From positions 12,739,969-12,803,968 of the forward strand of contig NC_049988.1 of NCBI RefSeq assembly GCF_000003815.2: a stretch of DNA of 64,000 nt. The letters run 5' to 3'. This DNA is from Branchiostoma floridae (taxonomy: Eukaryota; Chordata; Leptocardii; Amphioxiformes; Branchiostomatidae). A program made the position numbers and the translations under genes. The first letter of the stretch is position 1. Every line of letters starts with the position of its first letter. Under the pieces are notes generated by a model. That model searched no databases and had not been told where the DNA came from. It saw nothing but the letters and a program-made list of their open reading frames with translations. Below, one piece after another: positions 3,518 through 63,414 of the stretch.

Positions 3518-4659
3518 TGTTCACTTTCAAGCAATTCCTGGAAATGAAGAAAAAACGAAGATCAATAACGTTCAACAAACTTGAAATCAATAATTTGATG
3601 AAAATTATGATAGGGGAAATCAAATCGATTCTAACCGTACATGTTGTGGGGTTGCTCATGAAAATTGGACTTTCAATTCCCATTGAAATCAACTTGCTTC
3701 GATCCAACAATACTTATTGATTATGATTTAATGAAATTATAATAGGCAGGTTCAAATATGCAGTGTTTCCAGCGGTGGAAATGGCAAAACTAAACAATGT
3801 TCTCAAACCACACGTTCTTAATGATAATGACATATTGATTTGATTATATGGATGACATCCTCTTAATTTTTTTGTTATTTCGTATCTTACTCTTAGCATA
3901 GCCTACGATGTTCTTGCGTGGAGTCAAAATCGTAGTATTGCTTATATACTAAGTAATGAGTTCAGAAAAATGGCGCATTGTTATTTATTATTAAGACTAG
4001 TATAATACTAGAGCTGATATTTTATAATATTATTTTTCAAAGCGTAGGATTGCAATATAAATAATGAAAATATATATAGAATTAGATAATTGTAGAAAAT
4101 ATGTGAAAATCACGCATCATGCGGTTGTATTACTCCGCAATCATACATGTTTATGCACAAACACCGAAATCTAAAGTAGTACGCGATACTAAGTTTGGCG
4201 ATTTTTTCCCCTGTAAACAAATGATCTAAATGTATGGCATGATACCTCACTACAAAACAAGTGCAACACAACCGGAAGCTTGTCACTTTATATAAGTCCC
4301 TGTTACCGGACAAGTTAGTACAATCAGGATTTGGGCATACACCATTTTTTAGTGTATGACTCGCAGATATGCTATTATCCTATCACAAAATCATATCACG
4401 TTATCTTAGAGCACATTCAGATCTCCAGCAAAGAGTGCCAAGGGTTTGTTTGCACCACGTGGTTTTGTGACAATGGGGGTTTCTGCACAAGTTACATCGT
4501 TAGTTAGTTACCACATCTTTCAGTGTCATTATTCACTGTTGCCACTTAATAGTGAACGCGACTAGCATATGGAAAATATGTAGCGGCGAAAACACACTGC
4601 CAATGGACATACATGTAAGAAAGCAACACCCCTCATAAATAAATAGCCTCTTCCATTGA

Positions 4660-5490
4660 CCTCCTGACCTGTCATGTCTCATACCTCCTGTCACTCCCGC
4701 ACTTTATTTTTATACTCATGGAGAAAAACGAGCCAAAGGTCACCGTGGTAAATCTACATTTCTACACATGACGTTACGACAAGGACGGGGGCCGCCACAT
4801 ACTACCCATAACCTTTAACCCCGGCTCTTGGAGCCAAATCCAAGTGCACCTTTTTTCCATACTACTGCGTCAAAACCGTACATTCAAACAGAAGACGCTG
4901 ACAGATGATTTTCTGTGGCATGTCTGGCACAAGCAACTGGTCAAATGCGATAAATCTTTGTCTGGATCAATATACTTTCATTGTACCATGACGGGGGTAG
5001 CTATAGGTTACCAAGCATCTATTATCCTTTGTTTTGTGCATAATCCTTGTGGTAAACTTCTTTCATATACTACACAAATCACAACCACACATTAAACAGT
5101 ATATACACAGGAATATCACGTTCTAAATCTATTGCCTGAACAACGGGACCAATTTGACAAATCTAAATCTTGACCCATCAATTTTCATTGAAGCAGAAGA
5201 GAGGAGGGGCACAGATTACTAACCATCTTTAAACCATTCCCTAATTTATATACTTTATGCACCACAATAATCCAAACAGAAGACCCGAAAAATTATTTCA
5301 AAAAGTATGACTTGAGCAATGTGGTAAAGGTAATAAATCTACATCTGGACCGGTCATACGTTCATTGAACTAGGACGGGGGCCGCCACAGGCTTCAAACC
5401 ACCTTTGATTCGCTATTCTGTTAGTCCAATTCTTGTGTCGAATTTCTTGCACGCTACATGCGTCGCAACCATACATTCAAGCAGTATGCT
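4660..5490. repeat. Degenerate tandem array, about 195-bp unit, four copies
   Basis: Related blocks start near 4748, 4950, 5150 and 5335. Each has AAATCTACAT/AAATCTTTGT, then a CATT step and GACGGGGGCCGCCAC or GACGGGGGTAGC. GCGTC..AACC.TACATTCAA recurs at 4867 and 5460. There is no reading frame of interest. Confidence 0.6.
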
Positions 5491-17877: not shown

Positions 17878-18119
17878 TGCTGTGCGTTGGCGTGCAGTAG
17901 GGATAATTTGCTTGTCTGCTAAATACGTATTATGGTAGCGAAAGCCTTGTATTGATCTGTTAATCTTGTTGTAAATATATGTAGGTGTCTTAAAATATGA
18001 TGTTGCATTTTCTGACGTTCGACAACTAATAAATATGAAATAATTAGACCTTATTTCAAGGATATACAGTAACAATTTTAATTTATTTCATTTCTGTGAA
18101 AGGATAGCTGAGTGAGTAC

Positions 18120-18960
18120 TGTATGGTTAGCAGGAGTTCAGGTACTTTGGTCAGCTGAGAGGGTACAGCATGCACAGCAGGCGTCCAGGTATTGTGGCCA
18201 GATGAGTGGGTACTGCATGCACAGCAGGAGTCTAGGTATTGTGGCCAGCTGAGTTAGTACCGCATACACGGCAGGAGTCCAGGTATTGTGGTCAGCTGAG
18301 TGGGTATTGCATGCACAGCAGGAGTACAGGTACTGTGGTCAGCTGAGTGGGTACTGCATGCACAGCAGGAGTCCAGGTACTGTGGTCAGCTGAGTTAGTA
18401 CCGCATACACGGCAGGAGTCCAGGTATTGTGGTCAGCTGAATGGGTACCGTATGCACAGCAGGAGTCCAGGTACTGTGGTCAGCTGAGTGGGTACTGCAT
18501 GCATGGCTGGAGTCCAGGTACTGTGGTCAGCTGAGTGGGTAATGTATGTATGGCAGGAGTCCAGGTACTGTGGTCAGCTGAGTGGGTATTGCATGCATGG
18601 CTGCAGTCCAGGTACTGTGGTCAGCTGAGTGGGTACTGCATGCGTGGCTGGAGTCCAGGTACTGTGGTCAGCTGAGTGGGTATTGCATGCATGGCTGGAG
18701 TCCAGGTACTGTGGTCAGCTGAGTGGGTACTGCATGCACAGCTAGAGTCCAGGTACTGCGGTCAGCTGAGTGGGTACTGCATGCACAGCAGGAGTCCAGG
18801 TACTGCAGTCAGCTGAGTGGGTACTGCATGCACAGCAGGAGTCCAGGTACTGTGGTGAGCTGAGTGGGTACTGCATGCACAGCAGGAGTCCAGGTACTGT
18901 GGTGAGGTGAGTGGGTACTGCCTGCACAATTTGAGGTACTGTGGTAAGTTGAGAGGGTAC
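18120..18960. repeat. 47-bp minisatellite, about 18 copies
   Basis: Tandem units built on TCCAGGTACTGTGGTCAGCT, then GAGTGGGTACTGCATGCACAGCAGGAG. The period measured between 18183 and 18230 is 47 bp. Copies vary (CACAG/CATGG/CGTGG, TACTG/TATTG). Since 47 is not a multiple of 3, ORFs across it are artefacts. Confidence 0.95.
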
Positions 18961-19661: not shown

Positions 19662-20276
19662 TCATGTACTGTCTGGTTGTTGACTTGGTGTAATACTTTG
19701 AGTCAATCTTGTCATCTCTCTCAAGACAGATTGAAACGCTGTTATCCTCTTTGGTTCAAACTCTAGTATGGCCAAACCTTCAAGTGAGGTAACTCTGCTT
19801 AGAGCAACATATACCATTCCAGGGCTAAATACACTTGGTCCTATATCAAGTACAACTTTTGACAATGATAGGCCTTGTACTTTGTGGCAAGTTGATGCGT
19901 AAGAAAGTTGGAGTGGAAACTGTGTCCGGGTGAAAACAGTGCTGTAGCGTGCAAAGAATTTTGCTGTGATTGCTGAGATAAGAATAGCATTGTTCTTGGT
20001 AGGGTCTTGTAACATTTGACCAACCCTGGGATTGTCAAACTTGACGTAGACTCCTGTAACAGTTGGCACATTTGAGTTGTATTGTTGGTCATTTTCAGAG
20101 TCTTGTGATAGGAAGTCCTCCACTGTACCCTGTGCACCATTTACAAGTCCATCCTCGCTCAGAATGTTTCTTAGTAGCATGACTCGACAACCTTTAGCAA
20201 GGCGAAGTTCTTTCTCAAGTCCTGCTGTTTCACTGGTGTCTTCTGATCAATGGATTTCATATTTACAACGACATTA
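19662..20276 (-). pseudogene. Pif1-like helicase C-terminal fragment, decayed
   Basis: The C-terminal part of a Pif1/RRM3-type DNA helicase. In one frame it reads LEKELRLAKGCRVMLLRNI, GLVNGAQGTVEDF, TRTQFPLQLSYASTCHKVQG (motif V/VI region) and YVALSRVTSLEGL. A TGA at 20249-20247 interrupts the frame between an upstream YEIH and SEDTSETAGLEKE, and the Walker A half is missing from the visible upstream DNA. Pif1 helicases of this kind are often carried by Helitron-type elements, but no Rep domain or Helitron ends were seen, so the source is open. An exon of a living gene is less likely given the stop. Confidence 0.75.
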
Positions 20277-25800: not shown

Positions 25801-26476
25801 TCTTTGTACGAGTGTATTTGTTTTCACGTATTCTGGCCTTCAACCGTATCAAATACCTTGTATGTAATCGAATATTTCCTGTTTTTTTCCAAAGCATTTC
25901 CGTTCAAATGTTTACAAGATTTTCAGAAAACAGACACAGTGGCTTCTGCAAAACATCCAAAACATAAAGCTTTTTTTTTTTCAAACTGACAAGGTTATAG
26001 ACAGAACATAGCGTCACATTTGAAGAGACATCATGAAGTTACCGTGAATTGTTTGTATCTGTAAACCATATTATTTTTCTTTGCTATGAATTATAAAAAA
26101 AAAAAAAATTGTTAATATAAATATGAACGTAAAACGTTGCCTTTATTTGGACTGGCTATCGTAGAAATATTGCCGTATGTGATTTCTAACATAAATAGGC
26201 ATAACTAAGAATAAGAAAGAAAAAAAAGTCACCCTCACCTTTTGTGCTTTCTTCTGTCTGTCCCTCTTTTTTGGACGTCTTCGACGGAATTTCAAACTCT
26301 TCAAGACTTCTTCTCCTGCGTCCTTCGTCGGGACAGACTCGTACGACGGTCCTGATGAAGTCTCGGCCACATAGTCGTACTGGCTCCAGTCGTGGTGTGC
26401 TGTTGTTCGCTTCAGTTACGACCAACATTGCGACAGTCAATACGACTAGAATAAGACTTGGCTTGGGGAACTCCAT
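22706..26476 (-). CDS. Relaxin/insulin-like peptide precursor, two coding exons
   Basis: Secreted peptide hormone of the insulin/relaxin superfamily. Exon 1 (26476-26239) encodes a hydrophobic signal peptide (LILVVLTVAMLVV), then a B chain with LCGRDFIRTVVRVC, where the 11 residues between cysteines are as in the family, then a tetrabasic RRRR cleavage site and the start of a Lys/Glu-rich C peptide. It stops at AAAAG|GTGAGG in phase 1. Exon 2 (from 22830, or 22839 with the alternative acceptor, to the TGA at 22706) completes the C peptide, has the KR cleavage site and gives the A chain NVRLAERCCHQGCTIAEIA followed by ESVCF. A phase-1 intron in the C peptide is the classic insulin/relaxin gene structure. 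RDFIRTVV fits the relaxin cassette RxxxRxxI/V. The precursor would be 120 or 123 residues. Odd point: nine rather than eight residues separate the last two A-chain cysteines. Joining two exons 3.4 kb apart is inference from phase, strand and complementary content. Confidence 0.88.
22925..23440 (-). mobile_element. tRNA-derived SINE, long copy, in the relaxin-like intron
   Basis: On the minus strand it starts at about 23440 with GGGACCGCGTGGCACGATCG, a tRNA-like box A. Box B GGGGTTCAAATCC follows about 50 nt later, then TTGTGCCCTTGGGAAAGGCA, CTTTACACGACTTTCCTCAC and a body of about 400 bp ending in a (TTG)-like repeat at 22928. The CCCTTGGGAAAGGCACTTTA segment recurs in other copies in the window. 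No ORF. Confidence 0.8.
23455..23775. repeat. Two direct copies of a segment of about 110 bp, 200 bp apart
   Basis: TAATCTACTCCAGTCATAAT, GGGATACACACTTAGTCACG and GCGCCACCTAGCAGCA near 23480-23575 recur at 23672-23773 (TAATCTACTCTGGTCATAAA, same middle, same end). Confidence 0.75.
24503..24750. repeat. Two further copies of the CTCTCCAAGCAGAGGTTA family
   Basis: TCTCCAAGCAGAGGTTAGG at about 24508 and TCTCCAGGCAGAGGTTAACC at about 24668 are followed by CGGCTTTT or TGGCTGTTTTTTAAAGG. They match the foldback at 2112. They lie in the relaxin-like intron, with an inverted pair (GAGTGCTTTGAGACGA / CTCAAAGCACTCG) between them. Confidence 0.65.
25322..25515. mobile_element. TTCACC..GGTGA MITE, copy 2 (relaxin-like intron)
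   Basis: AACACTAGTTCACCTTTATC, CGCGGGGTAACC, TATATCCGTTGT are inverted at the far end as CAACGGATATATGTTACCCC, then ACGGATAAAGGTGAACGAGC. The arms are about 45 bp and nearly perfect. The AACRCTAGTTCACC / GGTGAACNAGCGTT ends are shared with copy 3. Confidence 0.85.
26239..26476 (-). CDS. Relaxin-like precursor exon 1: signal peptide, B chain, C peptide start
   Basis: The ATG at 26476 is followed within a few residues by a strong signal peptide core, which supports this start. Cleavage is likely after VVTEA, leaving a B chain of about 29 residues (NNSTPRLEPVRLCGRDFIRT, then VVRVCPDEG) before RRRR. The exon ends in TEESTK plus one base at the donor; read past it, the frame becomes a run of Phe with no meaning. 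Confidence 0.9.
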
Positions 26477-26509
26477 CTTTCAACTTGTTGTGGAGACTTT
26501 TCTCCTAGT

Positions 26510-31018: not shown

Positions 31019-34000
31019 GTAATAAGTTCTGTAGAATTTTTTTCCCAAAAATCCCAAACGATTTGAAAATGTGTTTCGGTCGATGTAACGTTTTCCTTTT
31101 TCTAAATCTAGAATTGCTGAAAGTGTCATGATTTAGTAAAGAAGGTCTTTACACTTACAGAAATATTCGTTCGTATCATATTACCCGTGTTATCTTGATT
31201 GGCGTATTGATGTATTACTATCTGTTGGAGGGGAGGGGGGCAGTTTGAGTACAAAGTAGTAGTTTCTAGATAACATTACATTTCAGGTCCCTTGCTGTGA
31301 TTTTACCTAGAGACAATCAGCTATAGAGAAAAACGATGAATAGATGTAGATAGGTAGATATGAAAAGAGAGATAGGCATCTAGCGAGAGAGGGAGACATA
31401 GGCATCTAGCGAGAGAGGGAGAGATAGGCATCTAGCAAGAGAGGGAGAGATAGGCATCTAGCGAGAGAGGGAGAGATAGGCATCTAGCGAGAGAGGGAGA
31501 GATAGGCATCTAGCGAGAGAGGGAGAGATAGGCATCTAGCGAGAGAGGGAGAGAGTGATAAAGAGGGAGGGAAAGGATGAGGTTGGGATGGATGTTGGGG
31601 TGACAGAGAGAGAGAGAGAGCAAATTATAGTGAGAGACAAAGCAAGTGAGAGACAGATAGAAGGGAAGAGAGAGAGAGACAGTGAAAGACACTGACAAAG
31701 ACAATGAGAGAAATAGAAAGAAATAGAAATATATAGGCAGTGACAGTGACAGAGAGACAATGGATAGATACTACATGTATTATACTGTAGGAATCTGACA
31801 CAACTTGCATTGAGTCGCCCAACACGTCCTTGTATATATGTAAATAACACTAACCCACCACATTCACTTGTCTTGTCTTTTGCACCCACAGATCAGTTGT
31901 TTATGTTTCCTTGTGTTTTTTGCCTTTGTTTGCCCTATGTTTGTATGGCATTAGCACCTGTTACTAACAAACATGCACACTGCTATTAATCCCCGTAAGG
32001 GGGCTGAGCAGTAGAAAAGAAGAAGAGAAGAAGAACTTGTCATTCACTCATTTCCCACCAGGGCCTGAAGGGCACACTACAGACCATGGACAGTGAGATG
32101 CCGAGGTCAGAGGGCAGCATCAGTAACCGGCTGCAGCTGGCCAAGGAGCTGCATCTGGAATACCTGATGAAGAAGAACAAGGTAACAGGTGGCATCTCAT
32201 TATCATAAGGCTATCACCTGAGGTACCAGCCCGACCGTAGGAAGAATCGTCCAAAGGCCGGAGGGCGATCCGACCCGCGGGAGGGCTGGGACCGAGGGTG
32301 ATGCGGAATACACCGTGTTGTATTTTATTCATGTCATACCCACCTGAGAAAACTCCTGTTTTGATGCGAAATGCGCCAGAAGATGAACAAAGTTGGTGCC
32401 CAGGTTGAACAAAAAGTGTTGCAACAGTAATGTTCTAACGTCCGAATCAAGTCTTTGAACTTTCTATGGCGCCGCACTCGTCCCGCTCGAAACAGTTCGA
32501 TTTATTCGAATAGAGCCCGAGTGATACAACTTAGAACCGGTCTGATATGGAAGTTATCACCCGGTCCGGCACACCCGTAGTAAACGTTTTCGCGTCACAG
32601 GTGTGACATCATATCGTGTCTTTTCTTGCTGTCTTCTTGTGCACGCAAGCGAGTTCCGATCATCCAAATGAAACCATGGAGCCTCGGGCCATATATTACA
32701 TAAATTAAATCATAGAATGCAACACGGGGTATTCTGTAGCGTCCGAGGTACCGCCCAACCGCGGGTACAGTAGGATCGCCCGACCTGCGGAAGGGTCGGG
32801 ATTGAGGGCTATTTTGTGTTTTATTGAATATTACGAGAGAGCAAAAGACATGACATCAACTACGCGATCGCATCAAAAACAAGAACCTGCAAAAGGAACT
32901 AAACAGTGGCACACTCATCAAAGTCGAATACTAGTAGTTGAAGCGAACTGTGGAGCCCTGGACGGTAACATGAAGTGCAGAACATCGATATTGAACATAA
33001 TTTGGACCAGGTATGATATAAATTTCAAAATACAAACTCCAGGTCAAAACACTGATATTGAACATAAAGATAGCCCTATTATGATGTAAATATAACATAT
33101 TATGTACCATGTTACGAGCAAGAAGAGAACAACACTTTTCTTCTTCTTAACATGTATGGTGTAAGAAAGAGTATTTACTGTAGCTTCTTTGTAAGAAGGA
33201 AAGTTCAACTTATTCATATTTTCCAAACCAAGGAGTGCTCCCCTCCACTACGAGCGATGCTGGAAGTCATGACCAAGTACTTCCTACAAAAGATAGACGT
33301 CGGCAGAGAGGACAAGAGACAATCTTCAGGCTCAAGACCATCTTCAAGAATGTCTTCAGGTACAGGGCTAGAAATTCATTTTTGGGATTAGGTGCACTGG
33401 TTGAAAACCCAGCTTGAAAAATTGGGTGCACGAAAAAAAAATTGGGTGCACCACTTAAATTTAAGTAATAACCTAATAAGGCCTAGGAAAAAAAATGTTG
33501 TGTTTCCTGTTTCCCTACCTACCCTAGAAAAACCTGCCGACCCTAGACTTTTTTTTGGGGGTGGGCAGAGGAGTCACAGTTTCCAGTTAGAATTTTTATT
33601 CAGCCTGCTTCCTATTGAAGCAAAAACACTGCTTGTCCTATCTAATGAAGGATAAATGTATCTATTGTATACAAAATTAAAGTTTGACATTAAAAGAGAA
33701 GTGTCCTCATGCACTTCAGTTTACTTTGTTTGACTGTATTGTAATATGTATCACTAGAGTTTTGGCCAGCCAAAAAAAAAATTACAAGAAAAAAAAGAAG
33801 ATAATCCCTACCTACCGACCCTAATTTTTTCAGGACTGAAACAGGAAACACAACATTTTTTTTCCTAGGCCTAATAAGAATTAGTCACAAGCTATCGAAT
33901 TCTTAAGTACCATGACTGACATTTTTTATTATCTTTCTAACACTTAGATGTCACGAATATGTTGTATACTAGTATACTTTAATATCTTTACATACATAAA

Positions 34001-46000: not shown

Positions 46001-49000
46001 CACATATTTTCTATGTATTACCAAATGTTGACAACTTGAATGATATATATTAATTTAGTAATTTTCCATTACGCTTGTACAAAGCATACATGTATACTAC
46101 TACCATTATATTCCATTCATACCATGATATATGATTATACACACGAAATTAGTTTGAATTTTGACATTTCTTTCCATAATATTGAGTTGACATGAAAACT
46201 GACATCAGTTATTTGACATTTGTCCTGTAATTGTATATGAACTTTGCTGCCCTTTCTGTCGAAATTGCTTCTAAAACAACATCAGATTTCCCACTAATAA
46301 GCATAACCATAATGTTAAGTGACATTTCCAATGGCATTCTTTATCCAAACTGCTATCTTTTATATTCTCTATGACATTTCTGTCACTGGTGATAAACTTC
46401 ATCTATGTTGGTCCTGTCCCTGGTGCTGAATAACATTTATTAGGGTCTCCTTTTATATTTTCTGTATGACAGGTTTGTACAAATTCAATAAAGCTCACTT
46501 ACCCTACAGGTAAGGGTTGGACAAGTTTTCTAAATTTCACTTGTCCTATCAGGCAAGTACATTTTAGAAAGTTTAATTGCCCGAACTAACTTTTCCGGAC
46601 ATTTAAAAGACATTTGTCTATAAGTATAAGTAAGTATTTTCAATTTCATCATTGGAATTCTTTTATTGTTGGCTCTACTTTTCTGTATTGATCAATGCTT
46701 GATGCTATTTCACTGTGAAAGGTAACATGTAATCTCTTTTATGGAAAAATCTTACTTGCCCGATCGGGCAAGTGGGGTAGGACATGCACTTGCCCAATCG
46801 GCACTTTCAATTGCTGGGGGCAATCAGGCTAGTGGACTTGTCCAACCCTGGTACAGACCAAGTACTGAAACAATCTATATACCGACCTGAAGCAACTTTT
46901 CACTGTCTTGATATTCAATGTTTTATCGCTATATGTTTTTGTTTGCAGTGAGCAAATGCTTACTTTTTTTCAGTATGTAACAATAAAAAGAAAACCAGAC
47001 TCATCTGTCGTGACTTAAGACACCCTCTGCCACCTATACTACTAATCTCCAAGCAGATCCTACAGTGAGATGAGATAGCGTCATCCCAACATATAGGATC
47101 TGCTTTGGGACTACCTTCAAAGTTACTACTGTAAATTATGCAGAAATATTTGCGCTGGATTAATGTTCGCGGTTTTTGCGGTGTCCACTTCACCGCAAAC
47201 ATAAAACCACCGACCGCAAACATTTTCCATTATTGTTTTAGACTGCAGTCTATGGTGTTACCGCGAAATTAAATCCCCGCGAATTTAAGTGCATTTACAG
47301 TATTACTAGTTCAACCTGGATATATATAACTCACGAATACAACAGCAAGCTAAATGAACATTTCTACAGTTTTGTATACCTTTTTAGATTTGATCATTTC
47401 TAAGATTTTAACCTTTTTTTTTTGTTGTTTGCAGGAAATGGTGAACCTATTCCTGACGGGAAAAGCTGTGTCTAACGTGTTTAACGACACGGTGGAGCTG
47501 GACTCTGGGGGTGGGGAAACCATGATCCTCAGGGGGGTGGGGAGTAGGAGCGAGATCGGTCTCCTCTCACTCTTCGAACACTATGGGTCTTGCCAGGTAG
47601 GTAACAGTTGCAAGCATAACTTTAAAATCTTGATTTCAGTTTGCCACACCTTTTGCTTCTTTATCAATAATTATTGCATCATGAGCCCAAGGTCTACAAA
47701 AATATGTGAAAAGAGTTGAAAACCAAAAGTGCCTAAATTATCCTGCCAACACTTTACTTTCAAACACCTTTCCAATCAGGTATACTTAACATCAACAGTT
47801 ACTCTCTTAATACCACCCGATAACAATACAACTGTTACAGTAACCACTTGAGAAAACAAGGGATTTGAAGAGATAGATTATACAGTGCATCAGTAGTCCT
47901 GAGAAATACAAAAAAATGAATGGATAAAATTTCAAAATGATATTGAGATATTGAAAAAAGTGGAATTATGGGAATTGATGGTAATTTATCATACTATCAT
48001 TTTGAAATACAATAAACCAATCTTTTATATAATCGTTTCGATATGACATGCATGTCTTATCAGAAACAATGGATTGTACATTTTCTTGACAATCACATAG
48101 CTTTTGAGCACTCTAGGATTGTTAAAAGTACTAAAAGATAATGTTAGACCAAGATATGAAAAAGAAGGACCATTATAATTATATTCTTATAGCATGCATG
48201 AAAGATGTTTAATAGTCAATTCAAAGTTAATGAAAAACACCATTTTTACTGACAACGGTTACCATATTTCTTATGAATCTTGCCATTCACTAAACTTAAA
48301 AAATAACACTCTCATAGAAAAAAGGGACACAAAACAACTAGATTGACTGTAAAAATGTATATTCTCCTTAGCAAACATAACAACATGGTAAAAAAGAAAG
48401 GATTTATTCAGGAGCTCCTCTTCTACTAGTCATGTTTCTTCCCTTGAGCTTTGACTGTTGAAATAAGGTTTTGAAGACTTAGTGCTCTTTTTTTATATAC
48501 CTTTACTTCACGCCCATTCCAGGTTGGCACCTACATGAAGACCCCCCGTTACCCCATCTGGGTGGTGTGCAGTGAGAGTCACTTCTCTGTACTCTTCTGT
48601 CTCAGGAAGGAACTCATGAACGACTGGAAATGGACTTTTCTAACCCTACCCCCCTCCCATCCCATTCCAGGTTGGCACCTACATGAAGACCCCCCGTTAC
48701 CCCATCTGGGTGGTGTGCAGTGAGAGTCACTTCTCCGTACTCTTCTGTATAAGGAAAGAACTCATGAACGACTGGAAATGGACTTTTCTAACCCTACCCC
48801 CCTCCCATCCCATTCCAGGTTGGCACCTACATGAAGACCCCCCGTTACCCCATCTGGGTGGTGTGCAGTGAGAGCAAGTCTTCTCTGTACTCTTCTGTCT
48901 CAGGAAGGATCATTATATATCATGAACGACTGGAAATGGATTTTTCTAACCCTACCCCCCTCCCGTCCCATTCCAGGTTGGCACCTACATGAAGACCCCC

Positions 49001-51721
49001 CGTTACCCCATCTGGGTGGTGTGCAGTGAGAGTCACTTCTCCGTACTCTTCTGTCTCAGGAAGGAACTCATGAACGACTGGAAATGGACTTTTCTAACCC
49101 TGCCCCCCTCCCATCCCACTCCAGGTTGGCACCTACATGAAGACCCCCCGTTACCCCATCTGGGTGGTGTGCAGTGAGAGTCACTTCTCCGTACTCTTCT
49201 GTATAAGGAAAGAACTCATGAACGACTGGAAATACGAGCGCCGCTTCGACCTGTACTACTATGACGGACTCGCCAGACAGGACGAACAAATACGCCTCAC
49301 AGTTGGTAAGCATTTTCTTGATTTAAATCAAAAGCACATTTTTACGAGATTGCATTCAAATCTGGCTGCGCGTCACCGATATTGTGCCCTTGGAAAAGGT
49401 ACTTTTCACAGCTTTCCTCAATTTATTCAGGTGCAAATGAGCACCTACATGTAGCTTTGGCCAGGACCGTCCCTTAAATAGGACGTTACATGGAGGTCCC
49501 GTGTCTGGGGAGAGCCACACAACAGGCACATTAAAGAACCCACCACACGTGTGAAGGTGCAGTGTGGGATGGAGTAAGTTCTTCTGTCTGGAGTTGGTGA
49601 TTCACTGCAAATCACCTGGACGGGAGACGTGGCACACCAAGTCTTGTATCAGCCAAAGAAAGGGTATGTCACCCTGAAAGGGACGATAAAACCCCGACGG
49701 TATACAGTGAAATCCTGTGCGTCGACCAACTAACTAAATGTTTTTAATTTTTCAAAACCCTAAAGGTGCTTCAAAATGTTGCCAAGTTGGGGTGCATGTT
49801 TCTCTATTTGAGTTTAATGCTGAAATGAATGGCAAATATACCCATGAGAGAAACCCAGTGGAACACTTGCAGATGAATGACTATACACTATGAACGTAAA
49901 CAGTCACTTCTCTGCTATTTCGTCTGGGTCCCTTGACATCTCTAATGTCTGGAATCGCGTTTGAGCGCTTTTAACAGGTGTTCCAACACTCAAAACAGTC
50001 TCCCTTTGATTACGGAAAGGCCAGTTGTCATCAAACGAGTGCTCTAAAACACATTCCTTAATTCACCAAAAGGTTTGAATGTACAGTTACTCAAATGGGC
50101 AGCAGACTTAGTGAACATCCAAGCAAACTACTACTCAATTGGTACTCAGGCTACTTGGAGGTTACCAATTTTCAATCAAACTCTTGCCAGACTTTTGATG
50201 AATGTACAGAACGTCTTCGTTAGCTTTAGACCTTGAGGCCAAATCTCACCCATTTACAAATCTTGACGCATTTACCCATGTGGCCAATCAGCAATCTTTC
50301 ATCATCTTATATAACAAACATTCGTTAATGTACAAACATACATCATGTACTGAGCTTCCGTCCTGAGAGCAATATATCACTCTTAAAAATGTCATGTTGA
50401 CGCAATTACCTTCGTGACCAATCAGCATTGTTCAATCAATCTTATGACAAACTTTTGACAATATACAATTTTCAAGATACAAGTATGTGTTGATTAGCTT
50501 TAGAGCTTCAAGCTGTATGTCACCGGTTAATATGGGAATTTTGACACTTTTATCGCCGTTGCCAATCAGAAATTGGGCACCTCGCATCTGAAAGATTGTG
50601 ATAAGCCTTGTTATGACAAGACCTGCAGGTATGCGAAAGCAAAATGGATGCATGTCTTGAGGAGAAAGGTCAGGGTTTGGGAATTAGTTTACACATGGAA
50701 GACTCTGAGTTTTCAACAGTATGTTTTCAACAGCATAAAGCTAGTGTCACGAGGCAGAAAAATACTGTTAATGTTGAGGTTTTCGCAGTGGTTCAATACC
50801 GTAATTTTTTGTTTTCAATTGATTTTAGTAGAAACATATCACAGCCAATATAGATGTAAATTTAAGCATGGGTCACTGGATAAGGTAAATTTTAGTTCAT
50901 GCATGTAATACTATGTGATATGAAGCACCCAGGGCATGAAGATTTCCAAGAAACCTTACAAATATTTCTTGGAAAACTAATATCAAGGGAACCTTAAACA
51001 TTGTGTACAGCATGTTACTGCTTTATGCTGTTTTGAGAATTAGCTGAAAATCTTGATGTTACGTTAATTATTCATGGGAAAGTCTTGCAAGGGTAAAAAT
51101 CAGAAATGGGCATTAGACTGTTTCTGGAAAACACCAGAATGTTGTTATTAATCTTACGCTGGTTCACCTTAATCCGAGGTGACCAATATCCGTTGTTTGT
51201 AAGAAAAAGCATACTTAAGGATATAAAGTCAACAGACGGTGGTTTCAAATCGGAACATTTTGAAAATATTGCAAATTTGAAACCACTGTCCGCAGACTTA
51301 ATACTCCTAAATCTTTTGTTTTTAAAGACAACCGATAAAAAAAAAGGTCACCTCGCGGATAAAGGTGAACTAGTGTTATAGAGTTCCATAAAATACATTT
51401 TGTCTCATATATGTATATACAAGATGTATATTGTTGGCTAGCCTTATTTCTTTCATTTGTTGTGATTCAGAAAAGATATGATGCTGAACTTGAATATAAC
51501 ATGAAAGCAGATTCTTTTGAATACATTCCAGATAGGTAATGTTACTGAATGAATGATTCAGAAGGACTTTTAGAAACATTTTAACTCTTTGGAATGATTT
51601 TTGTTCTATACTGTATTGATAAAGTTTTGTTTTCTTCTTTAACTTCAGACAACTTACATCCCTACCAGCCTCCAGGGGAGGGAGAACTAATACCACCATT
51701 GGAGCACTGTATCCGGACAAA
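30956..51721 (+). CDS. MINDY4: MINDY4 (FAM188B) lysine-48 deubiquitinase, 17 coding exons, last exon not found
   Basis: MINDY-family cysteine protease that trims K48-linked polyubiquitin. Coding exons: 30956-31018, 32062-32181, 33233-33359, 35357-35552, 36544-36712, 37351-38027, 39266-39434, 40458-40574, 41342-41436, 42096-42197, 43351-43414, 43975-44040, 45050-45117, 45584-45647, 47435-47596, 49125-49305, 51649-51721. All junctions keep one frame, giving 837 residues plus two bases; human MINDY4 is somewhat shorter. Residues 1-45 resemble a LisH motif ([18 protein letters not shown]). Residues 60-500 are Ser/Lys-rich and probably disordered. The catalytic domain starts near 508 ([10 protein letters not shown]). 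Oxyanion Gln544, Cys550 (GGPCG) and His773 (SESHF) are present, as are [29 protein letters not shown] and DLYYYDGLA. All introns are GT-AG except intron 6 (GC-AG). The protein breaks off in CIRTK, where vertebrate MINDY4 adds about 15 residues from one more exon; I did not see that exon before the window end. Identity is from recognised conserved blocks, not a search. Confidence 0.95.
31372..31555. repeat. 26-bp minisatellite, seven copies, MINDY4 intron 1
   Basis: Unit AGCGAGAGAGGGAGAGATAG plus GCATCT, period 26, near perfect. Continues into less regular GA-rich sequence to about 31720. Ser/Leu ORFs on the minus strand are artefacts. Confidence 0.95.
32062..32181 (+). CDS. MINDY4: MINDY4 coding exon 2
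   Basis: 120 nt, residues 22-61, after a CCCACCAG acceptor and before AAG|GTAACA. Encodes [16 protein letters not shown] and then an [17 protein letters not shown] helix. These match the second half of the LisH-like region in MINDY4 orthologues. Confidence 0.93.
33233..33359 (+). CDS. MINDY4: MINDY4 coding exon 3
   Basis: 127 nt, residues 62-103 plus one base. Encodes [16 protein letters not shown], matching the 'PLKTSLELITRYFLDH' region of vertebrates, and then a basic Ser-rich stretch. Acceptor AACCAAG, donor TCAG|GTACAG, phase 1. Confidence 0.88.
33390..34125. mobile_element. TGGGTGCAC-rich element, MINDY4 intron 3, with nested MITE
   Basis: Left part 33390-33475 has GGTGCACTGG and ATTGGGTGCACCAC; right part 34015-34125 has TTGGGTGCACCC, GGGTGCACATGCACCCAG. 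The two halves flank the MITE at 33480-33871. Exact ends uncertain. Confidence 0.55.
33480..33871. mobile_element. GGCCTAGG-ended MITE, 392 bp, TAA target duplication
   Basis: Left GGCCTAGGAAAAAAAATGTT plus GTGTTTCCTGTTTC, right GAAACAGGAAACACAACATT plus TTTTTTCCTAGGCC: inverted repeats of about 36 bp. A second inverted pair lies inside (CCCTACCTACCCTAG / CCTACCTACCGACCCTAA are direct). TAA is present on both sides, as in PIF/Harbinger insertions. The interior has no transposase. Confidence 0.8.
34768..34835 (+). repeat. tRNA-derived SINE fragment, MINDY4 intron 3
   Basis: TCATTTGGCACTGTAGTTAG, then CTGGGTTCAAATGTC, a box-B-like motif. Only the head is visible. Confidence 0.4.
35357..35552 (+). 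CDS. MINDY4: MINDY4 coding exon 4
   Basis: 196 nt, residues 104-168 plus two bases. Ser/His-rich, then [20 protein letters not shown], which aligns with the acidic 'YDLSDEDAGW' patch in vertebrates. Acceptor TTATAG, donor CACAG|GTTAGT. The phase-1 entry and phase-2 exit fit both neighbours. Confidence 0.88.
35955..36055 (+). repeat. Second copy of the GCTAGCCCTTT retroelement tail, in MINDY4 intron 4
   Basis: GGCTAGCCCTTTGTAATAGC, then CTAGTTGAGCAGCC and an (AATA)n tail. Matches 3345-3440. Confidence 0.65.
36544..36712 (+). CDS. MINDY4: MINDY4 coding exon 5
   Basis: 169 nt, residues 169-225. Ends in [20 protein letters not shown], matching the conserved RGMMSGPI motif of vertebrate MINDY4. 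Acceptor TTTCAG, donor GAC|GTGAGT, phase 0. Confidence 0.9.
36815..36960 (+). repeat. tRNA-derived SINE copy, MINDY4 intron 5
   Basis: CTTTGGTAGTTAGAGTTGTT as head, TTTTGGGTTCAAATCTTCAT as box B, then TTGTGCCTTTTTGGAAAGGC and CTTGACTCAAGTGAAAATAA, in the order seen in the long copy at 22925-23440. Confidence 0.65.
37125..37285 (-). repeat. tRNA-derived SINE copy just before MINDY4 exon 6
   Basis: The minus strand has GTTTGGATCCCC as box B, GCCCTTGGGAGATGCATTTC, then CTATCCTCACTTCACTC. Same family order as 22925-23440. It ends about 65 bp before the exon 6 acceptor. Confidence 0.65.
37351..38027 (+). CDS. MINDY4: MINDY4 coding exon 6 (long disordered linker; GC donor)
   Basis: 677 nt, residues 226-450. 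Very rich in Ser, Lys, Asp and Asn with no recognised fold; near its end is [15 protein letters not shown], a probable amphipathic helix. The acceptor is CCAACAG. The only junction that keeps frame with exon 7 is AG|GCAAGT, a non-canonical but well known GC-AG donor. Read past that point, the exon hits a stop at about 38101. Confidence 0.88.
38294..39135. mobile_element. Element with four internal repeats of about 185 bp, MINDY4 intron 6
   Basis: Bounded by GTGGCGGCGACACCGGGGAG, poly-G/C on the left, and CCCCCCAATACAAAATTTGC, TGCCGCCGCC on the right, which look like weak inverted ends. Inside, GAAATGGCGTTTCAGAG-type and AGATTTCAAAATTT-type motifs recur near 38470, 38650, 38845 and 39045. The related element 42515-42742 shares CACGAAATAGCGTTTCAGAG. 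No transposase seen. Confidence 0.65.
39266..39434 (+). CDS. MINDY4: MINDY4 coding exon 7
   Basis: 169 nt, residues 451-507. Encodes [20 protein letters not shown], matching the vertebrate 'LRLEDVEDELI' acidic helix, then [17 protein letters not shown] leading into the catalytic domain. Acceptor TTGTAG, donor GCT|GTAAGT, phase 0. Confidence 0.92.
39618..40033. mobile_element. MITE of about 415 bp, TTAGCCTGGGTACC ends, 7-8 bp target duplication
   Basis: Left TTAGCCTGGGTACCATCCGG and right CCGGATGGTACCCAGGCTAA are perfect inverted repeats. TGATATA stands directly outside both ends, or ATGATATA if the last A is outside; an 8-bp duplication suggests the hAT superfamily. It lies in MINDY4 intron 7. 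Related fragments occur at 49880-50155 and 56905-57190. Confidence 0.85.
40458..40574 (+). CDS. MINDY4: MINDY4 coding exon 8 (start of catalytic domain, oxyanion Gln)
   Basis: 117 nt, residues 508-546. Encodes [18 protein letters not shown] and ends RFGIVQNK. Gln544 matches the oxyanion-hole glutamine of MINDY enzymes. The catalytic loop is split by the intron between QNK and GGPCG. Acceptor TTTTCAG, donor AAG|GTATGT. Confidence 0.95.
41040..41095 (-). repeat. tRNA-derived SINE head in MINDY4 intron 8
   Basis: Minus strand TTGTAGCTCAACTGGTAGCA matches a tRNA box A. A box-B-like GGTTTGGGTTGGAC lies further down at about 40960. Likely the same family as 3433-3517. Confidence 0.55.
41342..41436 (+). 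CDS. MINDY4: MINDY4 coding exon 9 (catalytic cysteine)
   Basis: 95 nt, residues 547-577. Opens with [20 protein letters not shown]; Cys550 is the expected catalytic nucleophile. Acceptor TTGTAG, donor CACAG|GTACAT, leaves two bases. Confidence 0.95.
41594..42041. mobile_element. Foldback MITE in MINDY4 intron 9
   Basis: Left GGGACGTTACTCCTAATCTC, CAAGCAGATCCTAC and right GTGGATCTGCTTGGAGATTA, CGTTACTCCC form long imperfect inverted repeats that include TAGTATCAAA / TTTGATACTA. The AATCTCCAAGCAGATCCTAC end recurs at 47045 in intron 14. Confidence 0.8.
42096..42197 (+). CDS. MINDY4: MINDY4 coding exon 10
   Basis: 102 nt, residues 578-611. Encodes [18 protein letters not shown] and KKLAVVAM, matching the helical 'CLVLALADIVWRAG' block of vertebrates. 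Acceptor TGCCAG, donor AAT|GTGAGT. Confidence 0.94.
42295..42480 (+). repeat. tRNA-derived SINE copy, MINDY4 intron 10
   Basis: TTCTGGGTTTGAATTCGTTG (box B), TTGTGTCCCTTGTGAAAGCC, ACTTTACATGACTGTCCTCA. Confidence 0.7.
42515..42742. mobile_element. MITE with CAGGGTTGTAGCCAGC ends, MINDY4 intron 10
   Basis: CCAGGGTTGTAGCCAGC at the left and GCTGGCTACAACCCTG at the right are perfect inverted repeats. The interior has AATAGCGTTTCAGAGGGTCT and GATTTCAAACTTTTCCC, as in the element at 38294. Confidence 0.85.
43102..43320. mobile_element. CGCGAACTTAAAACCACCGC repeat, copy 1, MINDY4 intron 10
   Basis: TACTGTAAAA at the left and TTTATAGTA at the right are weak inverted ends. Inside, TTAATGTTCGCGG-like, ACCGCGAACTTAAAACCACC and GGCGAAATTAAATCCCCGC. 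It ends 30 bp before the exon 11 acceptor, so it may contribute the 3' end of this intron. Confidence 0.75.
43351..43414 (+). CDS. MINDY4: MINDY4 coding exon 11
   Basis: 64 nt, residues 612-633, [20 protein letters not shown]. It restores phase 0 before exon 12. Acceptor CCTACAG, donor ACT|GTGAGT. A foldback repeat (43102-43320) ends about 30 bp before this acceptor. Confidence 0.92.
43975..44040 (+). CDS. MINDY4: MINDY4 coding exon 12
   Basis: 66 nt, residues 634-655, [20 protein letters not shown]; matches the 'YEDLVTFLQQSI' helix of vertebrates. Acceptor CATTAG, donor CTG|GTGAGT. Confidence 0.92.
44590..45000. repeat. AAGAA/TTCTT-rich foldback, MINDY4 intron 12
   Basis: GTCCATGGGGCAAGCAAA and CGTCCATGAGGTAAGCAAAA flank dense AAGAAAAT / ATTTTCTT motifs that can pair. 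This looks like a decayed foldback repeat next to the exon 13 acceptor. Limits uncertain. Confidence 0.45.
45050..45117 (+). CDS. MINDY4: MINDY4 coding exon 13
   Basis: 68 nt, residues 656-677, with [17 protein letters not shown], matching 'GCILLTLSAILSRS'. Acceptor ATTTCAG, donor CCA|GTAAGA, leaves two bases. Confidence 0.93.
45584..45647 (+). CDS. MINDY4: MINDY4 coding exon 14
   Basis: 64 nt, residues 678-699, ending [11 protein letters not shown], an almost invariant MINDY4 block. Acceptor TTCCTAG, donor CAG|GTGAGG, phase 0. Confidence 0.95.
46503..46852. mobile_element. MITE with AGGGTTGGACAAG ends, MINDY4 intron 14
   Basis: Left AAGGGTTGGACAAGTTTTCT and right CTAGTGGACTTGTCCAACCC are inverted. 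Inside, CTTGCCCGATCGGGCAAGTG is a perfect small palindrome, and CACTTGTCC / TTGCCC motifs recur. Confidence 0.75.
47040..47125. repeat. Short foldback related to 41594-42041, MINDY4 intron 14
   Basis: CTAATCTCCAAGCAGATCCT, ACAGTGAGATGAGATAGCGT then AGGATCTGCTTTGGGACTAC: inverted arms around a short centre. Confidence 0.65.
47127..47302. mobile_element. CGCGAACTTAAAACCACCGC repeat, copy 2, MINDY4 intron 14
   Basis: TACTGTAAATTATGCAGAAA to AAGTGCATTTACAGTA, with TTAATGTTCGCGGTTTTTGC and CGCGAAATTAAATCCCCGCG. Inverted ends are clearer than in copy 1. Confidence 0.78.
47435..47596 (+). CDS. MINDY4: MINDY4 coding exon 15
   Basis: 162 nt, residues 700-753. [19 protein letters not shown], then [17 protein letters not shown], both highly conserved in MINDY3/4. 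Acceptor TTTGCAG, donor CAG|GTAGGT, phase 0, which must join an exon starting [10 protein letters not shown]. Confidence 0.96.
47725..48480. other. MINDY4 intron 15, no repeat recognised
   Basis: AT-rich intron sequence leading to the exon-16 array. The last 40 bases before the first array acceptor (TTTTTTTATATACCTTTACT) differ from the CTAACCC-type tract in front of the later copies. Confidence 0.5.
48483..49232 (+). repeat. Five-copy tandem array of the MINDY4 exon-16 5' part with its acceptor
   Basis: Exon-like segments begin at 48523, 48671, 48819, 48977 and 49125. Spacing is 148, 148, 158 and 148 bp. Each repeats [10 protein letters not shown]... through MNDWK, and copies 2-5 are each preceded by CTAACCC, a C/T tract and CCAG. 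In copies 1-4, NDWK is followed at once by the next unit's intron-like TGGACTTTTCTAACCC, with no donor. Copy 3 has 2- and 8-bp insertions that break the frame. Reading on from copies 1, 2 or 4 ends at a stop inside the next unit, after LPHLGGVQ. The pattern looks like recent tandem duplication of the 3' splice site plus about 108 bp of exon. Confidence 0.93.
49125..49305 (+). CDS. MINDY4: MINDY4 coding exon 16 (catalytic histidine), fifth copy of a tandem array
   Basis: 181 nt, residues 754-813 plus one base. [20 protein letters not shown] carries His773; after NDWK it continues [20 protein letters not shown]. This is the only one of five tandem copies that keeps the 3' half of the exon and a donor (TTG|GTAAGC), so it is the only one giving an intact protein. 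Acceptor CACTCCAG, preceded by CTAACCCTGCCCCC. Confidence 0.95.
49350..49690 (+). repeat. SINE copy, MINDY4 intron 16
   Basis: Lacks a clear tRNA head but has GATATTGTGCCCTTGGAAAA, CACAGCTTTCCTCA and GGTGCAAATGAGCACCTACA, like the body of 22925-23440. It continues with GGAGGTCCCGTGTCTGGGGA and ends near GGGACGATAAAACCCC. Confidence 0.65.
49880..50155. repeat. Fragment related to the TTAGCCTGGG MITE
   Basis: Contains CAGTCACTTCTCTGCTATTT, CGTCTGGGTCCCTTGACATC and, at the right end, GGTACTCAGGCTA. Similar to 56905-57190 in the order of motifs. Confidence 0.55.
51155..51380. mobile_element. TTCACC..GGTGA MITE, copy 3 (MINDY4 intron 16)
   Basis: TTACGCTGGTTCACCTTAAT, TGACCAATATCCGTTG to AAAGGTCACCTCGCGGATAA, AGGTGAACTAGTGTTA. 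The core has GAAAATATTGCAAATTTGAA like the AAAATATTACAATTTGAAAC of copy 2. Confidence 0.85.
51649..51721 (+). CDS. MINDY4: MINDY4 coding exon 17
   Basis: 73 nt, residues 814-837 plus two bases: [20 protein letters not shown] then CIRTK split at the donor AA|GTAAGT. Vertebrate MINDY4 continues in one further short exon beginning with W after this lysine. Confidence 0.93.
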
Positions 51722-60175: not shown

Positions 60176-60949
60176 TATAATTATATAGTATCTGTCTCCA
60201 CACACAGACACACCAACAACATACCTCTTTTTATGGAGGGAACATTATCTGAGTGTGACTTCCAATACGAACCCTGTACAGCCAGAGTACATGTTTACAA
60301 AGTTGTAGCTAAATTATAACAAGCTATTTGTGCTAATGATAACAAGATATTGTGCTATTTTTATATCTTATGTCACAAAGCAAAGACGTTACATGGAATC
60401 ATCAGCTTTCAACATTTTTGCAAAGTTGTTGCGTTCCCTACGAATGGTATCAATTTTTGGCAAAATAAATATTTCATGTGATGATAAAATCAATACATAA
60501 TGATTGCTATCCATCATAATTTCCTTGGCCCTTAATGGTTATGGTAGGCAAAGTGCACATTAGAAGTTATAAAGACATCATAATTGTAAAGTATTTATGG
60601 GTGCTTGATCCTAGACCTCGCTTTTAGCAAGGCCTGCTCTGACCCATTTTTAAGTTGCAATGAGGTACATGAAATTATTTTGACTTTTGTTAAAATGAAT
60701 TGTTTTGATTTCCTTGCATTTTTTTTCTAATGCAGAAAGGCTTGGTTATTCTAATATTGCTAGAAGTTACTGTCTAGAATAGATATATAGATTTTTTCGA
60801 AGGAAACAATGTATAAAAGATAGCTCTATTTTCATGTCACAGGAAAGGATAAGGATAAATACGCTCATTAGACTTTGACAGTTAGTTGTGTGGATGTGTC
60901 CATGTTACTGATTATGTGGTCCATAATCCTGATTGTATGGTTTGTCCCC

Positions 60950-61600
60950 ATGGTGCTGATTGTGCGGTTATGTCCATTGTACTAAAATTGTGGTTATGTC
61001 CATGGTGCTGATTGTGTGGTTATGTCCATGGTGCTGATTGTGTGGTTTTGTCCATTGTACTAATTGTGTGGTTATGTCCATGGTGCTGATTGTGTGGTTA
61101 TGTCCATGGTGCTGATTGTGTGGTTATGCCCATGGTGCTGATTGTGTGGTTTTGTCGACAGTGCTGATTGTGTGGTAATTTCCATGGTGCTGATTGTGTG
61201 ATTATTTTTATGTTTCTGATTGTGTGGTTTTGTCCATGTTTCTGATTGCGTGGTTATTTCCATATTTCTGACTGTTTTTTTCCATGGTGCTGATTGTGTT
61301 TTTTTTTCAATGGTGCTGATTGTGTTCTTTTGTCCATGGTACTAATGATGTGTTTTTGTTTCAATGATATTCATTGTGTTGCTTTCTCCTTTGTGCTGAT
61401 TGTGAAGCTGTGCACATTGTGACAATTGTGTCCTTTTGCTGATTGTGTGTTAATGTTCATGATGTTGATTGCATACTTTTGGCAATAATCATACTATATA
61501 TTATGTTGCGCATAATGCAAATTGGCTGCTTGTGTCCATGGTGCTGTTTGTGTGGTTTTGTCTACAATGCCAATTCTTTGGTTATGCCCATGTTGCTGAT
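60950..61600. repeat. 26-bp minisatellite, decaying outward
   Basis: Unit GTTATGTCCATGGTGCTGAT plus TGTGTG, period 26 (61071 to 61097). Near perfect at 61010-61130, with spacing and sequence loosening to about 61600. Confidence 0.9.
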
Positions 61601-62836: not shown

Positions 62837-63414
62837 CGAGGGGCGTGCAATTAGTAATGGTCCTGACCCATTTCCCATAGCAGGAGATTAATGAAACTTG
62901 GCACAGTTATTAGTCTTTCTCTTCATAGGAATCACCCAGAGTTATGCATTTCTCCCATCGTTTGATGCAGCTCTGGACACCGATTTTGTAGGACACCCCA
63001 GGTTGGTCCTCCAACTGATGCCTCATCAATGGCACAAGAGGGACGACCAGGTCTGGGAGCTGTTTCCACAGACTTCCAGCCACGTTTGAATTCAGGATGC
63101 CAGCGTTTTACAAGGTCATATGATGGGGCATCATCACCATAAGTTTCATTTATTTCATCAAAAGTCTTCTTTGGTGTGCGTCCTTTCAAATACAAAAACC
63201 GGATCACTGCGCGACACTCAACTGGTTCAATTTCACACCTGGTCCATTTCGCACCTGACTAAGTTCAAACACCTTTAAATCAGAAACCACAATTAGTTCA
63301 GAGCTGTCTTTTGCAACATAACCTATAGAGATATGAATTATTACACATACAAAATTTCATTTAGATCAGACAACTGGAAGTGGGTCAGGACCATTACTTA
63401 TTGCACGCCCCTCG
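62837..63414. mobile_element. Mariner-derived deletion MITE, 578 bp, TA target site
   Basis: The ends CGAGGGGCGTGCAATTAGTA (left) and TACTTATTGCACGCCCCTCG (right) belong to inverted repeats of about 34 bp with one mismatch. They are flanked by TA on both sides, as expected for Tc1/mariner. The element keeps only the N-terminal part of the transposase (minus strand). Confidence 0.93.
62932..63237 (-). pseudogene. Mariner transposase N-terminal (DNA-binding) fragment
   Basis: Reads EPVECRAVIRFLYLKGRTPK, KTFDEINETYGDDAPSYDLV, KRWHPEFKRGWKSVETAPRP, GRPSCAIDEASV: the paired HTH region and the GRP linker of mariner transposases. After IDEASV the frame runs into unrelated residues and a stop. The whole catalytic DDD region is missing, so no activity is possible from this copy. 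Confidence 0.88.

Follow-up and report, generated by a model that had tools for sequence, protein, structure and literature searches.

A mirage-like tandem array of five 3' splice sites in MINDY4 of the amphioxus Branchiostoma floridae

How does a gene fare with five nearly identical 3' splice sites, the last of which alone is productive? This question is raised by MINDY4 of the amphioxus Branchiostoma floridae, which lies in a stretch of 64,000 nucleotides (contig NC_049988.1, positions 12,739,969 to 12,803,968) that we analyzed as a whole and refer to as the window; positions without a locus name are counted from its first letter. Such a locus amounts to a natural test of acceptor choice, namely, of whether the acceptor transcribed first or exon definition prevails. 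The array is very probably an amphioxus "mirage" minisatellite that is tolerated rather than used as a regulatory switch.

Tandem Repeats Finder, run on the window, detected a repeat at 48513-49233 with a period of 148, 4.8 copies, and a score of 1247. Its unit comprises 39 nt of intron end and 109 nt of exon start, and five such copies follow each other head-to-tail, their first exon bases (Table 1) being spaced by 148, 148, 158, and 148 nt. The five copies reported in a first-pass annotation of this DNA were thus recovered, and the acceptor positions that it gave (48522, 48670, 48818, 48976, and 49124) are exact as the last intron bases. Only copy 5 is a full 181-nt exon that encodes DLYYYDGLA and ends at a donor at 49306, again as annotated. 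Copies 1 to 4 lack the 3' half of the exon and the authentic donor; the annotation's statement that they have no donor holds in this sense, but all five copies contain a donor-like sequence, GCA followed by GTGAGA, 49 nt into the exon. The premature stops predicted for the upstream acceptors were also found, namely, after LPHLGGVQ for acceptors 1, 2, and 4 and after SRLAPT for acceptor 3. Each of copies 2 to 5 is preceded by a 39-nt spacer with the expected CTAAC, C-rich (pyrimidine) tract, and CCAG and with a branch-point-like A at -28. These spacers differ by no more than 4 bases in any pair: those before copies 2 and 3 are identical, and those before copies 4 and 5 carry two private variants apiece. 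The flank before copy 1 differs from the spacers except for the common CCCATTCCAG, to the left of which 11 of 26 bases agree with the spacer (shuffle P of 0.16); derivation of the spacer from this flank is unsupported. In a DNA search of the species' own genome (513,431,437 bases in 431 contigs), all five matches of the unit fell on the MINDY4 array, in one place. That search listed no second copy of the array and no separate haplotype elsewhere, which, for a DNA search without a match, is no proof of absence.

The assignment to the MINDY4 family proved right. The translation of the copy 5 exon matches the Pfam family MINDY-3_4_CD with 98.2 bits, and 27 of its residues align with MINDY-3 in PDB entry 9rmd, where SESHF stands opposite SETHL. 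The histidine of SESHF is presumably the catalytic residue. Further domain exon matches were found for the rest of the gene.

The copies fall into two types, A (copies 1, 4, and, apart from its indels, 3) and B (copies 2 and 5). Four of the 109 nt distinguish the types: TCT/TCC and AAG/AAA are silent, and CTC/ATA changes two bases and exchanges leucine for isoleucine. Compared with copy 5, copy 1 differs at four sites and copy 4 at three, since the TCT/TCC difference is present in copy 1 and absent from copy 4. When copies 1 and 2 are compared as a pair with copies 4 and 5, 264 of 267 bases agree. The exon part of copy 3 measures 119 nt, because TCA is replaced by CAAGT and AC by TCATTATATA (net +10). 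These indels destroy SESHF; therefore four of the five copies encode it, and the annotated presence of the catalytic histidine segment in every copy applies to copies 1, 2, 4, and 5 and not to copy 3. The two silent differences and the single leucine/isoleucine codon suggest that type A may have diverged as a working allele before it was copied. Former alleles A and B may then have been joined by unequal exchange, with the resulting A-B pair being copied afterward.

The name "mirage" for repeats of this kind reportedly goes back to Canestro et al. 2002. Mirages are described as minisatellite-like tandem duplications of exon-intron boundaries in amphioxus (PMC3087553). The MINDY4 array is a further case of this already known class: its minisatellite-like tandem units span an exon-intron boundary, and the one complete, authentic copy (copy 5) occupies an edge position, all others being partial. 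A number of comparisons can be made. (i) In the B. floridae globin gene BflGb6, tandem units of 150 to 160 bp, present as 6 and 3 repeats on two haplotypes, likewise consist of an intron 3' end and an exon 5' part (PMC3087553). The MINDY4 array differs from it in lying in another gene, in having an intron part of 39 nt and a nearly unrelated flank before copy 1, and in the large indels of one unit. (ii) The lancelet mirages of Adh3, BflGb9, PGBD5, and troponin C are also tandem duplications at exon-intron boundaries (PMC3087553, PMC3902484). Their unit lengths are unlike the 148 bp of MINDY4, with 10 to 72 bp in Adh3, 157 bp in BflGb9 (where the donor side is duplicated), and 60 and 108 bp in the mirage-like repeats at PGBD5 splice sites, in whose description Adh and troponin C are cited (PMC3902484). 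(iii) Data on Adh3 and reverse transcription-PCR of globins suggest that regular splicing is undisturbed despite the extra sites (PMC3087553). Because of this, the lowered MINDY4 output or short isoforms considered in the first-pass annotation are possible but would not be the default expectation.

The best reading is that the array would be young and unstable and that its spare acceptors would mostly be ignored. The 3' splice site and the first 109 nt of the exon would have become a tandem repeat, and unequal exchange or slippage would drive its turnover. As a unit consists of an acceptor plus the exon start, with the remainder of the exon lying beyond the last unit, any gain or loss of units would leave one complete exon, and the array would be tolerated; selection against turnover should therefore be weak. 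General splicing knowledge and the published mirages suggest that the last acceptor would be preferred through exon definition, since it is closest to the real donor (181 nt, compared to 329, 487, 635, and 783 nt for the others). Messenger RNAs from acceptors 1 to 4, with their early stops, would probably be removed by decay. Four points weigh against this reading. (i) The acceptor of copy 4 lies at a distance from the donor that is still an ordinary exon size, and exon definition alone is no clear bar to its use. (ii) The normal splicing assumed for MINDY4 is carried over from the published cases. (iii) Upstream of copy 1, the intronic portion of the unit is unrecognizable past 10 bp, which obscures the first duplication step. 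(iv) In the published BflGb6 pattern, edge copies escape homogenization; in MINDY4, copy 1 has a divergent flank, yet the edge copy 5 does not differ from copy 2 over 109 nt.

There is a real, if minor, chance that the true allele has fewer or reordered copies and that the five-copy order arose from assembly and from the merging of haplotypes with shorter arrays. The A-B...A-B order and the near identity of its two pairs fit this possibility. An array of 721 bp is about as long as one Sanger read. The published B. floridae assembly was made from roughly tenfold Sanger data, its haplotypes being merged by HaploMerger2 (PMC7269912), a draft of BflGb6 had been assembled aberrantly (PMC3087553), and the repeat numbers of PGBD5 differ between two public versions (PMC3902484). 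On the other hand, copy 3 and the last two spacers carry private variants, and the PGBD5 repeats were confirmed from original reads and new data (PMC3902484). Moreover, haplotype merging would affect the copy number and not the existence of the mirage. The first-pass annotation had allowed for a polymorphic or an assembly-generated expansion; the former is possible, and the array itself is unlikely to be a pure assembly artifact, because of the private variants in copies and spacers and the published sister cases. An array of the mirage kind at this locus is thus well supported, and the exact number of five is not secured because the assembly is Sanger-based and haplotype-merged.

The copies might act as decoys, with a sizeable share of splicing going to acceptors 1 to 4 and copy number setting the protein output. 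We consider this improbable. The near-identical splicing signals before copies 2 to 5 and the early stops reached from acceptors 1 to 4 are in its favor, and an upstream acceptor would be transcribed first. However, exons from the upstream acceptors would extend over the full 329, 487, 635, and 783 nt, and copy 3 has decayed by indels, although its acceptor is intact. It is likewise very improbable that the array serves as a genetic dial, in which spare 3' splice sites divert splicing to unproductive mRNA and the copy number sets the dose of this deubiquitinase between individuals and, were the array somatically unstable, between cells, too. That an upstream copy is an intermediate of intron gain, becoming a new exon with the internal GTGAGA as its donor, seems hardly credible. 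Every copy does offer an acceptor with GTGAGA 49 nt downstream, and intron gain from mirages has been proposed (PMC3087553), but a 49-nt exon would shift the frame, and the authentic exon holds the same GTGAGA, which is necessarily skipped when the protein is made. Intron creation by tandem duplication (the Rogers model, to which PMC3087553 refers; a case in potato RdRp, PMC4974935) likewise has duplicated splice signals as its raw material; unlike there, the MINDY4 sequence gives no sign of a new intron in use. Mutually exclusive tandem exons were ruled out, since copies 1 to 4 are incomplete and GTGAGA as their donor would give the same frame-shifting 49-nt exon.

The reading of the array as a tolerated mirage can be set beside other loci of the genome. 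We selected 11 loci by family, for matches to globin or MINDY-3/4 domains, and two globin arrays served as the positive control. At L013:3809-4456 (contig C18), four acceptors lie 154, 158, and 158 bp apart, and the last alone is in a complete exon; in L010 (contig C7), a globin exon is duplicated on its donor side (shift of 157, 88.7%). The former agrees with BflGb6 and the latter with BflGb9 (157 bp), as matched by unit length and layout and not by the published sequences. A MINDY4-like paralogue, L016 (contig C12, minus-strand gene), contains two further boundary duplications. In the exon homologous to that of the array, a 45-bp donor-end segment is present twice (L016:2624-2712, 97.7%), giving GQASQIQGTKLTIG twice in frame, and use of the second donor would add 15 residues. 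At L016:7227-7581, an older duplication of an acceptor and exon start was found (shift of 210, 82.9%), the upstream copy of which reaches a stop. These two duplications are newly noted beside the MINDY4 array. No paper in the literature collection searched names both "MINDY4" and "amphioxus." Inspection of L016 by eye showed a degenerate third copy, with GTAAC, beyond the 45-bp duplication. It also showed VNDVY in place of the SESHF of MINDY4 (L016:2656-2862), so that the presumed catalytic histidine is missing, a resemblance to MINDY4B. As to the globin loci, a second GTAAGTCC occurs about 100 bp downstream of an exon donor at L012:4586-4801, with a tandem duplication in the intron beside it (4605-4684 and 4721-4801, shift of 116); this was not counted as a mirage. 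An 84-bp array near a globin match (L006:7576-8887) resembles, by eye, coding zinc-finger repeats.

How common boundary duplications are bears on both intron gain and gene annotation. Outside the window, a tandem duplication lay close to one end of 4 of 15 exon matches (the two globin and the two L016 cases), and the other 11 had none by this criterion. Tandem duplications lay within 15 bases of 4 of the 30 match ends and covered 3.9% of the bases (3,569 of 91,810 in ten loci; L006 was excluded from the coverage for its zinc-finger-like array, its exon match being kept among the 15). We do not claim an enrichment at exon ends, as the numbers are too few to judge. Four of 15 family-chosen exon matches, two of them fitting published cases, suggest that duplications of this sort are not rare in the B. 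floridae genome. We also inspected cytochromes P450, with 119 matches from the best 92 of 1,139 candidates scored, a scan that favors strong matches and is no measure of frequency. Among the matches listed, inspection of the rows by eye revealed no pair less than 500 bp apart in which a whole stretch of the profile recurs; three neighboring pairs overlap by about 25 to 57 profile positions (C164; C15 near 5.23 Mb; C5 near 12.07 Mb), and one member of each has stops.

Table 1. Features of the MINDY4 splice-site array and its surroundings (window positions)
Feature	Position	Strand	Evidence or remark
MINDY4 exon upstream of the array (EMVNLF...HYGSCQ), with donor GTAGGT at 47597	47435..47596	+	PF13898 match 181-253, 78.8 bits
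Intron end before copy 1	48484..48522	+	only CCCATTCCAG clearly common with spacers
Copy 1, exon start of type A (109 nt), without exon 3' half	48523..48631	+	PF13898, 56.9 bits
GTGAGA resembling a donor, 49 nt from the start of copy 1; likewise at 48720, 48868, 49026, and 49174 in copies 2 to 5	48572..48577	+	sequence
Spacer ahead of copy 2: CTAAC, C-rich tract, CCAG acceptor	48632..48670	+	sequence comparison
Copy 2, type B, equal to copy 5 over 109 nt	48671..48779	+	PF13898, 55 bits
Spacer with copy 3 acceptor, identical to first spacer	48780..48818	+	sequence comparison
Copy 3, A-like, SESHF destroyed by two complex indels (net +10)	48819..48937	+	PF13898, 28.3 bits
Spacer with copy 4 acceptor, two private variants	48938..48976	+	sequence comparison
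Copy 4, type A	48977..49085	+	PF13898, 55.9 bits
Spacer with copy 5 acceptor (full-protein acceptor), two private variants	49086..49124	+	sequence comparison
Copy 5, complete 181-nt exon, donor GTAAGC at 49306	49125..49305	+	PF13898 match, reading frame

Several other elements were seen in the window. A short open reading frame on the minus strand (26186-26479), with a signal-like start and RLCGRDFIRTVVRVC, resembles by eye a relaxin/insulin B chain; it had no Pfam match at E values up to 0.01. Fragments of mobile elements on the same strand include a Pif1-type helicase (19662-20246, Pif1_2B_dom), perhaps from a Helitron, and a transposase with a Mariner-type HTH_48 domain (62932-63258). Further minisatellites are located at 18106-18928 (47 bp, 17.5 copies), 31367-31554 (26 bp, 7.2 copies), and 60886-61404 (units of 26 or 78 bp).
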